From: Robiginitalea sediminis
GTDB lineage: Bacteria > Bacteroidota > Bacteroidia > Flavobacteriales > Flavobacteriaceae
Reading direction: 5' to 3'
Length of the DNA stretch: 64,000 nucleotides
Assembly: GCF_002198115.1 (NCBI RefSeq)
Contig: NZ_NGNR01000001.1
Location: 812,296-876,295, forward strand
Within the stretch, counting starts at the first letter, position 1. Every line of letters begins with the position of its first letter. A program made the translations under genes and the position numbers. The notes under the pieces were generated by a model. The model did not search any database and had not been told where the DNA came from. It worked only from the letters and a program-made list of their open reading frames with translations. Positions 51,173 to 58,686 of the stretch are shown in pieces.

Positions 51173-52072
51173 ATGTGCGGAACATGCGGTTGCGGAAGCG
51201 GGGAAGACGGGGTTCGGATTTTGAGCCCGGATTTGGGTAACCATCCCCACCACCATCACGATCACAGTCACGACCATCACCATCACGGGCATGGTCACGA
51301 CCATCATCACCACGATCACCACCACCATGATCATCATCACCACGACCACGATCATAGCCACCATCACCACGCACATACCCATGCGCACCCCCATGAACAT
51401 CATGCAACGGATACGGTCCGCAGCCGGGTGGTAGCGGTAGAGCAGGATGTCCTGCGGGAAAACGATGTGATGGCTGCCCGGAACCGGGGCTATTTTGAAG
51501 CCCGGAACATCCTGGCGTTAAACCTGGTGAGTTCCCCGGGGTCTGGTAAAACCACCCTCTTAGAGCGAACCCTCCGGGACCTGGGAGAGGAAATGGACTT
51601 CTACGTAATTGAGGGCGACCAGCAAACCACCAACGATGCCGAGCGTATTGCAGCCCTGCAGGTGCCGGTCCGTCAAATCAATACCGGCAAAGGGTGCCAC
51701 CTGGAAAGCGACATGATCTACGAGGCGGTCCGGCAGCTGGATATTGCCAATGACGGGGTGCTGATGATCGAAAACGTGGGCAACCTGGTTTGCCCGTCCA
51801 TGTTTAACCTGGGCGAACAGGCCCGCGTGGTGATCATTTCGGTTACGGAAGGGGAGGACAAACCCATCAAGTACCCGGACATGTTCCACACCTCCCAGAT
51901 TTGCCTGATCAACAAAACGGATCTGTTGCCCTACCTGGAATGCGACCTGGAGCGTTTGAAGAACTATGCCCTGCAGGTGAATCCCGACCTGAAATTCTTC
52001 GAGGTTTCCGCCCTGAAGGGCGAGGGCATGGAGCAGTGGTACAACTGGCTCAGGAGCCAACGCAACCCTTAG
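51173..52072 (+). CDS. hypB: GTPase HypB with long polyhistidine segment
   Basis: This 299-residue protein has the N-terminal high-affinity nickel motif C2-GT-C5-G-C7-G. The following segment (24-77) contains 37 histidines in 54 residues, which can store nickel. The P-loop is GSGKTT at 123-128, then EGDQQT and NKTDLL for GTP. It powers nickel transfer with HypA. The His block is far longer than in E. coli HypB and resembles rhizobial forms. Confidence 0.95.
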   Translation: MCGTCGCGSGEDGVRILSPDLGNHPHHHHDHSHDHHHHGHGHDHHHHDHHHHDHHHHDHDHSHHHHAHTHAHPHEHHATDTVRSRVVAVEQDVLRENDVMAARNRGYFEARNILALNLVSSPGSGKTTLLERTLRDLGEEMDFYVIEGDQQTTNDAERIAALQVPVRQINTGKGCHLESDMIYEAVRQLDIANDGVLMIENVGNLVCPSMFNLGEQARVVIISVTEGEDKPIKYPDMFHTSQICLINKTDLLPYLECDLERLKNYALQVNPDLKFFEVSALKGEGMEQWYNWLRSQRNP

Positions 52073-56917: not shown

Positions 56918-57173
56918 AGGGCTCAGTCTGAAAATACCAAAACACCGGTCTTGCTTCGCAACCCCGGGTTTTATTTCTAGGAAGCCCTTGTTCAGGGCGA
57001 TGCCGCTAGGAGATACCTTCCCCTGAAGTGCGCTCCGCTCTACTTCAGGGTCGGTGTTCCTAAGGAGGGCTCAGTCTGAAAATACCAAAACACCGGTCTT
57101 GCTTCGCAACCCCGGGTTTTATTCCCGTCGGTCTGCTTAGGAAAGCGAGCTTTCCACGCAAACCTTCGGAAAT
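56918..57173. repeat. tRNA-tail repeat block A (two copies of a ~57-bp unit)
   Basis: A unit beginning GGGCTCAGTCTGAAAATACC and ending CCCCGGGTTTTATT occurs at about 56919-56975 and 57067-57123. Between them a hairpin CCCTGAAGT/ACTTCAGGG lies at 57021-57050. On the minus strand this is the region downstream of tRNA-Arg(CCG). Block B (57355-57604) repeats the whole layout. Confidence 0.8.
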
Positions 57174-57354: not shown

Positions 57355-57604
57355 TACAGACTGAAAATACCCAAACGCCGGTTTTGCTTTGTAACCCCGG
57401 GTTTTATTTCTCGTCCTCGCTTAGGGAGGGGTAGGCCAAGAGATAGCTTCCCCTGAAGTGCGCTTCGCACTACTTCAGGGTTGCTGTTCTTGAATGGGGC
57501 TCAGTCTGAAAATACCCAAACGACGGTTTTGCTTCGCAACCCCGGGTTTTATTCCCGTCGGTCTGCTTAGGAAAGCTCGCTTTCCACGCAAACCTCCGGA
57601 AATA
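57355..57604. repeat. tRNA-tail repeat block B
   Basis: This is the same organisation as block A: units at about 57355-57408 and 57497-57553 with a hairpin CCCTGAAGT/ACTTCAGGG at 57451-57480, followed by a terminator and tRNA-Arg(CCU). Sequence similarity to block A is high, so a tRNA-plus-tail segment of roughly 430 bp was duplicated in tandem and the two tRNAs then diverged. Confidence 0.8.
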
Positions 57605-57633: not shown

Positions 57634-57645
57634 GGTGCTTATTTG

Positions 57646-57717
57646 TAGCCCCGCCAAGAATCGAACTTGGATCTAAAGTTTAGGAAACTTCTATTCTATC
57701 CATTGAACTACGGGGCC
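57646..57717 (-). tRNA. tRNA-Arg (anticodon CCU)
   Basis: The 72-nt gene on the minus strand has acceptor GGCCCCG/CGGGGCT, anticodon arm GAAGT-TTCCTAA-ACTTT, T arm CCAAG-TTCGATT-CTTGG and discriminator A. CCA is not encoded. It reads AGG codons. Its first 22 nt are repeated twice upstream, at 58147-58168 and 58598-58619, in the GIY-YIG modules. Confidence 0.93.
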
Positions 57718-58146
57718 AATCTTTTGGAAGCGGTTCAAAAGGGTTTGCGAATTTATGAATACTTTTTAAAAATGGTTGTCTCTGAATGATTATCCCGATG
57801 GGTTAAAGGACTTTTGATCAAATCTGTCGATGAGTTTTTTCTGCATTTCGGGATACTTTTTCAAATTATCAACATATTGCCGGCTTTTCATCCGCTTGAT
57901 ATGTTGTTCTATTTTAAGCCCGATGGTCTTATTTCTAACTTCAAGGATCAGATAGTATTCCCAGGGAATTTTATTTCGGGACTTACCTTGATTGAGGCCT
58001 TTATCATTGTGCCACTTAAGTCTTTTCTGGGTATCGCTAGTGCTGCCGATGTAATACGAATCGTCTTTAAGGGACCGTATCATGTAGACGTAGTAAGGCA
58101 CGTTATTCAGGAAATGAAAGGAAACTTCCCCCGATAGCTATCGGGG
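57696..58146 (-). mobile_element. GIY-YIG/tRNA module, copy 1 (451 bp)
   Basis: On the minus strand, from 58146 down to 57696, the unit contains the palindrome CCCCGATAGCTATCGGGG (58129-58146), a GTG-started GIY-YIG gene and a ~50-bp AT-rich promoter-like tail. It ends in the first 22 nt of tRNA-Arg(CCU), here joined to the rest of the intact tRNA. The period to copy 2 is exactly 451 bp. Read this way, the unit inserted after tRNA nucleotide 22 and supplied a replacement promoter and 5' end. Confidence 0.7.
57790..58101 (-). CDS. GIY-YIG nuclease, copy 1
   Basis: This 103-residue single-domain GIY-YIG endonuclease of the UPF0213/YhbQ type starts at GTG. The motif is Y4-V-Y with Y17-I-G, the catalytic arginine is probably R27 (KRLKWHN) and the metal-binding glutamate E65 (GLKIEQHIKR). 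The basic C-terminal half can bind nucleic acid. It differs from copy 2 at nine residues, none of them catalytic, so both genes seem under selection. It lies 45 bp after a 22-nt tRNA 5' fragment and may be transcribed from a tRNA promoter. Confidence 0.85.
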   Translation of the reverse strand: MPYYVYMIRSLKDDSYYIGSTSDTQKRLKWHNDKGLNQGKSRNKIPWEYYLILEVRNKTIGLKIEQHIKRMKSRQYVDNLKKYPEMQKKLIDRFDQKSFNPSG

Positions 58147-58597
58147 CTATCCATTGAACTACGGGGCCAAGCTTTTGGAAGCGGTACAAAAGGGTTTGCG
58201 AATTTATGAATACTTTTTAAAAGTGGTTGTCTCTTAATGACTATCCTAATGGGTTAAAGGACTTTTGATCAAATCTGTCGATGAGCTTTTTCTGCATTTC
58301 GGGATACTTTTTCAAATTATCAACATATTGCCGGCTTTTCATCCGCTTGATATGTTGTTCTATTTTAAGCCCGATGGTCTTGTTTCTAACTTCAAGGATC
58401 AGGTGGTATTCCCAGGGAATTTTGTTTCGGGACTTTCCTTGATTGCGGTCTTTATCATTGTGCCACTTAAGTCTTTTCAGGGTATCGTAAGTGCTGCCGA
58501 TGTAATAGGAAGCGTCTTTAAAGGATCGTATCACGTAGACGTAGTAAGGCACTTTTCTGAGGAAATGACAGGAAACTTCCCCCGATAGCTATCGGGG
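58147..58597 (-). mobile_element. GIY-YIG/tRNA module, copy 2 (451 bp)
   Basis: This is the same unit as 57696-58146. It has a palindrome at 58580-58597, a GIY-YIG gene, a promoter-like tail with CGAATTTA at 58199-58206, and a 22-nt tRNA 5' fragment at 58147-58168, which here is not followed by a tRNA body. A further 22-nt fragment at 58598-58619 precedes it. That fragment is probably the original tRNA start, now separated from its gene. Confidence 0.7.
58241..58552 (-). CDS. GIY-YIG nuclease, copy 2
   Basis: This 103-residue GTG-started GIY-YIG domain protein is identical to copy 1 at 94 of 103 positions; most changes lie in the first half (7, 11, 14, 22, 25, 35, 36, 50). The motif tyrosines, R27 and E65 are kept. 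It is nearest the original tRNA-Arg promoter region. Expected activity is site-specific or structure-specific DNA nicking or cleavage. The tRNA gene is the likely target by context only. Confidence 0.85.
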   Translation of the reverse strand: MPYYVYVIRSFKDASYYIGSTYDTLKRLKWHNDKDRNQGKSRNKIPWEYHLILEVRNKTIGLKIEQHIKRMKSRQYVDNLKKYPEMQKKLIDRFDQKSFNPLG

Positions 58598-58619
58598 CTA
58601 TCCATTGAACTACGGGGCC
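58598..58619 (-). other. Detached 5' end of tRNA-Arg(CCU)
   Basis: These 22 nt are identical to nucleotides 1-22 of the intact tRNA (57696-57717), up to the 3' side of the D loop. They are followed on the minus strand by the palindrome of the GIY-YIG module instead of the anticodon arm. Upstream lies TGCGAATTTAAAAATACTTTT (58629 on, plus strand), resembling the tails of the modules. This was probably the start of the tRNA before insertion. Confidence 0.75.
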
Positions 58620-58686
58620 GCAGCGGGGTGCGAATTTAAAAATACTTTTCCAAAACTTCCCTAAATTCGTAGGGAAAGCAAGACGT

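Follow-up and report, generated by a model that had tools for sequence, protein, structure and literature searches.

Small GIY-YIG nuclease genes with hairpin-marked tRNA copies as candidate selfish cassettes at tRNA genes of Bacteroidota

We analyzed a 64,000-nucleotide (nt) stretch of the Robiginitalea sediminis genome (hereafter the window), in which two tandem units, each carrying one small GIY-YIG nuclease gene and a hairpin-marked partial copy of a tRNA gene, adjoin an intact tRNA-Arg(CCU) gene. With moderate confidence, and from comparison of sequences, we regard these units as members of a phylum-wide family of selfish, site-specific cassettes, akin to intronless homing endonucleases that duplicate a gene end.

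Tandem Repeats Finder reported a single tandem array at 57696-58619, with a period of 451 bp, 2.0 copies, and 94% matches. Together with ARAGORN and Pfam, it bore out an earlier note on this DNA, which had described the 451-bp period, the coordinates of the units, and two intact GIY-YIG genes. The components are as follows (ORF, open reading frame; aa, amino acids).

57645..57717, minus strand: intact tRNA-Arg(CCU), the supposed target gene, at the array's right end (ARAGORN; Rfam RF00005, 65.4 bits)
57718..57789, minus strand: inner-unit tail with a putative promoter-like sequence at about 57746-57767, resembling the stretch before the empty tRNA of genus mates (sequence, empty sites)
57790..58101, minus strand: inner GIY-YIG nuclease gene, 103 aa (ORF, Pfam, alignment)
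58119..58128, minus strand: inner partial tRNA copy, short arm (nt 27-36)
58129..58146, minus strand: inner-unit hairpin mark CCCCGATAGCTATCGGGG, in place of tRNA nt 23-26
58147..58168, minus strand: inner partial tRNA copy, long arm (nt 1-22)
58169..58240, minus strand: outer-unit tail with a putative promoter-like sequence, part of the 451-bp repeat
58241..58552, minus strand: outer GIY-YIG nuclease gene, 103 aa, sharing 91% identity with the inner gene
58570..58579, minus strand: outer partial tRNA copy, short arm (nt 27-36)
58580..58597, minus strand: outer-unit hairpin mark
58598..58619, minus strand: outer partial tRNA copy, long arm (nt 1-22)
58620..58660, minus strand: outer putative promoter-like region adjoining moaE, probably the original tRNA promoter to judge by its sequence; the same flank is seen by eye in an occupied genus mate (G304)

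Read on the strand of the tRNA, each unit runs from tRNA nt 1-22 through the 18-bp palindrome CCCCGATAGCTATCGGGG to nt 27-36 and on to the ORF. The 22-nt copies at 58147-58168 and 58598-58619 are identical to tRNA nt 1-22 in both units, as had been claimed, and the tRNA-Arg(CCU) gene at 57645-57717 is the sole full match in the genome, in agreement with the view that only one complete gene exists. The earlier note had placed the palindrome beside a copy ending at nt 22; the palindrome is present, but since the tRNA sequence picks up at nt 27-36 beyond it, it lies inside the copy rather than beside it. The 16-mer CCCGATAGCTATCGGG occurs twice in the window when two or fewer mismatches are allowed, against 0.02 occurrences expected. 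The two units differ at 28 positions, none of which falls in the first 50 (copy and mark; probability, ~0.03). The GIY-YIG ORF is the only gene of note on its strand within the 451-bp unit and fills it, leaving no room for an integrase; the claim that the unit lacks one therefore stands for the unit itself, the remainder of the genome lying outside the search.

Both window ORFs match the Pfam family GIY-YIG (PF01541) above its cut-off (4e-11 and 7e-9), and the two intact proteins differ at nine residues, the number given before (91% identity). Y6, Y17, G19, R27, H31, and E65 are invariant across 14 aligned relatives, and we take Y6, Y17, R27, H31, and E65 to have catalytic roles. The ratio of nonsynonymous to synonymous substitution rates (dN/dS) is 0.28 between the two window ORFs and 0.16-0.48 in five of six pairs, the sixth being saturated. 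On sequence grounds, the window proteins are thus members of the GIY-YIG nuclease superfamily. Predicted structures add weak support for this membership: the best model reached a predicted local distance difference test (pLDDT) score of 79 and the other four 39-59, while the top Foldseek matches (SLX1, EF2693, and I-TevI) all had E > 0.03.

Relatives were gathered by protein sequence alone, first in the family and then in the phylum of the window (Flavobacteriaceae and Bacteroidota). In the family search, the window protein was compared with 299 genomes at E <= 1e-8, yielding 65 matches in 40 genomes at 47 loci. ARAGORN found a tRNA on the strand of the gene at 41 of these loci, 39 times within 200 bp and otherwise at 425 and 802 bp. 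Among the six loci without a tRNA (L025, L027, L031, L210, L215, and L216), L027, L210, L215, and L216 are no farther than ~300 bp from the end of a contig; by eye, tRNA-like remnants are present at L025, L027, and L031. At L036 the nearest tRNA is a tRNA-Ser and not the copied one; by eye, the copies resemble tRNA-Pro. Two or more units are present at 12 of the 47 loci. For the phylum, a profile of 14 relatives matched 141 of 395 genomes at E <= 1e-12, and 68 of the listed places were taken as rows: 28 of 30 returned loci and 40 further stretches taken down the list. L221 and L222 were counted in the family set, L249 and L254 are the same place, and second places in certain genomes were skipped, as were a few more, G620, G683, G342, and G520 included. 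A tRNA was found in 59 of the 68 rows and within 200 bp in 56, all 56 on the same strand as the gene. Of the nine tRNA-less rows, five (L243, L247, L268, L280, and L281) lie within ~430 bp of a contig end, one (L230) is a stretch that begins within a long array, and three (L246, L269, and L276) are plain misses; 9 of the 15 tRNA-less places in both sets are at contig ends.

By chance, a random gene would show such adjacency at ~0.9%, assuming 40 tRNAs in 3.5 Mb. As a control, other GIY-YIG loci of the genus were inspected in stretches of 1.9-3.2 kb, and none of 21 contained a tRNA; a 22nd (L095) did, and it reads as a cassette at tRNA-Pro(GGG). The earlier note had held that relatives should lie beside tRNA genes, which is what both sets show, with a same-strand tRNA within 200 bp at 39/47 and 56/68 places. 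The targets include tRNA genes for Arg, Asn, Asp, Gly, Met, Phe, Pro, Lys, Val, and Ala, at either end of the tRNA. A strict-pattern scan of genome contigs with the window protein alone gave six distant relatives. A Pelagibacteraceae GIY-YIG gene located 10 bp past a tRNA-Glu (L010, 4917-5260) was set aside, as it has no tRNA copy. Another small GIY-YIG lineage of the genus was seen near tRNA-Asn in G304 (L088) and near a contig end with no tRNA in G306 (L103).

At the loci inspected by eye, the nuclease gene sits between an intact tRNA and a partial copy in one shared orientation, the copy matches the host's own tRNA, and a hairpin fills the gap in it. In 5'-types the copy comes first, as with Arg (nt 1-22 and 27-36) and Asn (nt 1-14 and 18-27); it stands last in 3'-types, as with Asn (nt 33-45 and 51-75) and Met (nt 25-35 and 41-75), and also with Asp, Gly, Phe, Ala, and Lys. 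Replacement of the tRNA 5' end, proposed by the earlier note, is only one version overall; it accounts for 30 of 102 labelled tree rows and the 3'-type for the other 72. We scanned 116 gene loci, 101 of them with an ARAGORN tRNA, using a script that searches for colinear pieces of the neighboring tRNA interrupted by an insertion, and at least one marked copy was found in 66 of those 101. Altogether, 120 marked copies (77 distinct inserts) were collected; a stem of at least 6 bp was present in 106, compared with 3.6% of shuffled inserts, and CCCGA-loop-TCGGG in 98. The stems of the Pro(UGG) group differ (CCACGC/GCGTGG and TCACGC/GCGTGA), and a further type is CCTGCCTG/CAGGCAGG. In some copies an entire tRNA arm has been swapped for the hairpin, such as the anticodon arm in Ala and Pro copies. 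The position of the mark is constant across genera in several target classes (Arg 22/27, Asn 14/18, and Met 35/41).

Rfam identified no RNA family other than tRNA in the window and 14 loci. On this basis, the nuclease gene is free-standing, outside any intron or intein, and we rejected a group I intron or another known RNA as the explanation. Two loci (L233 and L257) hold short arrays of marked partial tRNA copies with a period of ~85-95 bp, too short for a nuclease gene. At L040, L041, L201, and L205, the ORF stop codon TAG falls within the first nine nt of the following tRNA-Pro, and at L201 one marked copy is still scored as tRNA by Rfam.

Nine genus mates were then searched for the tRNA-Arg(CCU) gene. 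The site is occupied in G304, which has its own tandem pair with a period of 427, and in G306, where it is split over two contigs; it is empty in six (G299, G300, G301, G302, G303, and G191), with the promoter-like stretch directly before the tRNA. G305, which is 74% complete, gave no match. The tRNA-Arg sequence of the empty mates G299 and G301 is identical to that of the window, and moaE adjoins the tRNA in G191, the same moaE-side flank being seen by eye in the occupied G304. At tRNA-Phe, the site is clean in G191, G300, G301, G302, and G303, and a marked partial copy without a nuclease gene is present in the window's genome (G000), G304, and G306; no full match was found in G299 and G305. 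Thus, occupied and empty alleles exist at one and the same site, as in intronless homing. The empty sites had been named beforehand as what would separate insertion from slippage; with 6/9 mates empty, these results support the mobile-module interpretation.

Gene-less marked copies also occur at tRNA-Leu and tRNA-Gly of G000, and at tRNA-Ile the mark is followed by nt 58-75. Such copies may be remnants after gene loss or non-autonomous copies. Marked partial copies (Phe, Leu, Gly, Ile, and Ser) without a gene stand beside intact tRNAs at L142, L144, L146, L150, L118, L130, and L135. Three points had been missed before: the hairpin is part of the tRNA copy, copies throughout the phylum are marked by similar hairpins, and the same genome has gene-less marked copies at other tRNAs.

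Which tRNA gene is targeted tracks with the lineage of the protein. In the 49-protein tree, the target-and-side label required 15 changes, compared with 33.5 for shuffled labels (a difference to which near-copies contribute), and Arg5 (96/97), Pro5, and Phe3 formed single groups. In the phylum tree of 115 proteins, which has few columns and many unresolved forks, Gly3 and Arg5 formed single groups and seven of nine Met3 rows, spanning three families, clustered together; Asn3 and Asp3 needed seven changes each, and Val3 and Pro3 were scattered. The target is thus bound to lineage but not absolutely, the target amino acid changing 22 times over the phylum tree. Such a lineage trait with some switches is as expected from site-specific nucleases.

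From these arrangements we infer how cutting and transfer could proceed and what role the hairpin could play. The nuclease would cut an unmarked tRNA gene at, or close to, the position where the copy has its hairpin, and the break would be repaired from a cassette-bearing copy, with the tRNA arms serving as homology. The outcome would be a marked copy, the nuclease gene, and an intact tRNA, or the mirror order; because an intact tRNA is restored, the host tRNA would survive. The marked copy would be immune to cutting, and tandem arrays would arise when the intact copy is later cut and then repaired from the neighboring unit. As for expression, Arg 5'-types have a promoter-like stretch (AAAAGTATTCATAAATTTGC and alike) at or after the ORF end and before the intact tRNA, and empty mates have a similar one; the nuclease gene of 5'-types is probably transcribed from the tRNA promoter. 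The tRNA of Asn 5'-types begins within 13 bp past where the matched region ends, and the ORF stop codon of Pro 5'-types lies inside the tRNA, which suggests that tRNA and nuclease probably share a transcript. In these Asn and Pro 5'-types the tRNA would depend on that transcript, and loss of the cassette would be costly.

Several observations weigh against the selfish-cassette interpretation. The intact neighboring tRNA retains the supposed cut site, so self-cutting would have to be weak or tolerated. Pfam found no domain besides GIY-YIG in the window proteins, which leaves the choice of one tRNA gene by the protein unexplained. Searches with the window protein at 1e-6, and with one short pattern (the latter being weak evidence), gave no match in plasmids, phages, or viral contigs, which leaves the cassettes with no known vehicle. 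The elements of G000 and G304 group together, so within the genus they may have been inherited vertically and lost from some members. The script detected no marked copy in 35 of the 101 tRNA-bearing loci, at least 14 of which do have a hairpin in a tRNA copy by eye (L021, L022, L040, L041, L201, L205, L239, L242, L260, L267, L271, L287, L289, and L290). Small GIY-YIG genes also exist away from tRNAs (L005, L087, L103, L106, and L217), indicating that the tRNA rule is one of this family and not of every small GIY-YIG gene. The marks of two unit pairs have diverged strongly (11/18 in L018 and 8/14 in L284). Finally, the hairpin is abundant elsewhere: TCCCGA-N3-8-TCGGGA gave 449 hits versus 17 for the control in 20 genomes with nuclease relatives, and 289 versus 14 in 20 genomes without a relative at E <= 1e-12. 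In one genome without a close relative (G125), 20 of 25 hairpin sites were inspected; most are away from tRNAs, and the two near tRNAs are outside tRNA copies.

The hairpin is therefore not a private signal of the cassettes, though common in them, and we rejected the notion that it is private to the nuclease family because of the matches in genomes without close relatives. The mark belongs to a wider genomic hairpin family and was possibly recruited rather than being element specific. This raises an alternative that we consider unlikely but worth weighing, namely, that an independent mobile hairpin, resembling repetitive extragenic palindromic (REP) elements, lands in dispensable tRNA copies and the nuclease cassette is a separate matter. 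It would explain the enrichment of the hairpin in genomes both with and without close nuclease relatives and its occasional location, judged by eye, in the loops of terminators or repeats. The exact 16-mer CCCGATAGCTATCGGG was counted 13 times in G000, 24 times in G306, and up to 40 times elsewhere, with none in 18 of 40 genomes; its reversed control is absent from all 40. Only 5 of the 24 copies in G306 lie within 450 bp of a same-contig tRNA (six if the broken Arg locus is included), as an independent hairpin would have it. In G000, by contrast, 9 of 11 copies not belonging to the window cassette have one of the genome's 38 tRNAs within 350 bp, which argues the other way (9 of 13 overall, the two of the window cassette lying 413 and 864 bp from the tRNA). 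About four of those nine (Phe, Leu, Gly, and Ile) are within a recognizable tRNA copy, but those near Asp, Lys, Leu(GAG), and Ala are outside one (L143, L147, and L149 among the loci), again as the alternative predicts. It does not account for a mark position constant across genera in several target classes, nor for a mark little changed between most tandem units. REP/RAYT systems scatter small palindromes through a genome, but no Y1 transposase (RAYT) gene was found in any of 10 searched genus genomes, and a RAYT origin of the palindromes was rejected for the lack of Y1_Tnp in the genus.

By eye, several of the G125 sites lie in terminator-like or repeat hairpins, and one stretch there has a weaker GIY-YIG match (1.5e-9). 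TCCCGA-loop-TCGGGA was also seen by eye within the loops of hairpin repeats, terminator-like ones and others, as though it inserts there (L121, L133, L136, L138, L140, L151, L154, L159-L161, L319, L323, L327, and L328).

A second alternative, which we find distinctly improbable, retains homing but makes it RNA guided: the nuclease would bind the hairpin of a tRNA-derived transcript, whose tRNA-matching arms would guide it to the tRNA gene. If true, this would be phylum-wide RNA-guided homing built from tRNA fragments and a minimal GIY-YIG domain. A near-constant stem with variable flanks matching the adjacent target, a loop free in length and sequence, and a nuclease without an obvious specificity domain are all in keeping with it. 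So is the comparison of tandem units, which also speaks for the selfish cassette and in which 8 of 14 adjacent-unit pairs were informative (three from one array, L157, the pairs thus not being fully independent): the mark differs at 1/147 positions and the 10-bp flanks at 0/163, versus 103/1993 for the ORF (mark and flanks versus ORF, Fisher p = 4e-6). Six pairs were omitted, three of L249 with no difference and those of L018, L224, and L284 with >25% differences, whose units are perhaps not genuinely tandem; the marks of the latter differ at 11/18, 0/19, and 8/14. Guidance by RNA is, however, at odds with the binding of target to protein lineage, as for sites read by a protein; compared with free retargeting by RNA, lineage-bound targets speak mildly against it. 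Moreover, the hairpin is also present in genomes and at sites that lack the nuclease, and stem mismatches comprise 7 G-U and 7 A-C, some of them from misregistered rows, with no wobble bias. This wobble test gave no sign of RNA-level selection on the stem.

Still less probable is a toxin-antitoxin or defence system in which the nuclease is aimed at tRNA and the marked partial copies serve as a decoy or antidote. The short arrays of partial copies (L233 and L257) would suit it, but GIY-YIG enzymes are known as DNA nucleases, a toxin has no need to adjoin its own target gene, and the empty mates G299 and G301 carry the identical tRNA-Arg. Least probable of all is local duplication without mobility, in which an old tRNA-side gene and a bit of tRNA were duplicated by slippage or unequal crossing-over: arrays with near-identical units can indeed grow by unequal crossing-over, but one protein family lies at many different tRNAs and at either end, mostly with a marked copy, single-unit loci have the marked copy too, and at two tRNAs the sites of genus mates are cleanly empty; the many independent tRNA targets and the empty sites led us to reject slippage of an old gene.

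Two features elsewhere in the window were recorded. Another long hairpin, CTGAAGTG..CTACTTCAG, is present in two copies (57023-57048 and 57453-57478), with none expected by chance; both are in look-alike stretches adjoining the two tRNA-Arg genes, and similar hairpins were seen by eye in G306 stretches. Overlapping CAC/CAT-rich tandem repeats at 51247-51381 possibly encode a histidine-rich stretch.

Returning to the selfish-cassette interpretation, we compared the cassettes with known systems. Tyrosine-integrase islands insert in a tRNA gene and restore it; the 451-bp unit has a GIY-YIG ORF only, and 5'-types restore the 5' part. Closer is SegB, a free-standing GIY-YIG homing endonuclease of T-even phages that reportedly cuts within tRNA genes (PMC13096335, PMC2988022). 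Its cutting, combined with homologous recombination, is reported to lead to tandem amplification of a tRNA segment (PMC13096335), which supports the proposed growth of arrays by analogy. SegB resembles the cassettes in being encoded among tRNA genes outside an intron. It is, however, a phage gene, and the passages on it in these papers mention no hairpin-marked partial tRNA copy, whereas the cassettes are found in bacterial genomes phylum-wide, in lineages bound to one tRNA gene and side. The fungal mitochondrial mobile ORF elements (mORFs) at atp6, atp9, cox2, and nad3, three of LAGLIDADG and one of GIY-YIG type, offer another parallel: the inserted endonuclease ORF brings a copy of the gene end, so that the host gene remains functional and its old end becomes a displaced duplicate (PMC3630166). 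Likewise, a duplicated gene end and a functional tRNA flank the nuclease ORF of the cassettes. Unlike the cassettes, which occupy both ends of bacterial tRNA genes, the mORFs described there reside at the carboxy-terminal ends of protein-coding mitochondrial genes, and their description mentions no hairpin mark (PMC3630166). I-TevI has beside its gene a homing-site-like operator that lacks a well-placed cleavage motif and is bound but poorly cut (PMC2988022); unlike the cassette nuclease, it is intron encoded and possesses a DNA-binding domain (PMC2988022). An operator role of this kind was rejected for the mark, since in 3'-types (72/102 labelled rows) the marked copy is downstream of the gene and so is no promoter operator of it.

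No description of such elements was found among the open-access papers listed on GIY-YIG and tRNA, most subscription papers and preprints being outside this scope, nor did the letters of the palindrome match anything in the open-access literature. The three mentions of tRNA in the 2006 survey of the GIY-YIG superfamily do not concern such elements (PMC1564403). The cassettes thus look like a form of intronless homing not previously described, and possibly something more.

If this interpretation is true, the cassettes would be among the smallest selfish elements known to us, consisting of one ~300-bp gene that colonizes tRNA genes across a bacterial phylum, duplicates parts of them, and leaves hairpin-marked pieces behind. 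This would account for the small GIY-YIG genes found in tandem in these genomes and for the partial tRNAs there, and provide a bacterial counterpart to the gene-end-duplicating elements of fungi and to phage SegB. It would also make it possible to test by what means a GIY-YIG domain on its own recognizes a single tRNA gene, how a host withstands the cutting of a single-copy tRNA, and what role the hairpin plays.

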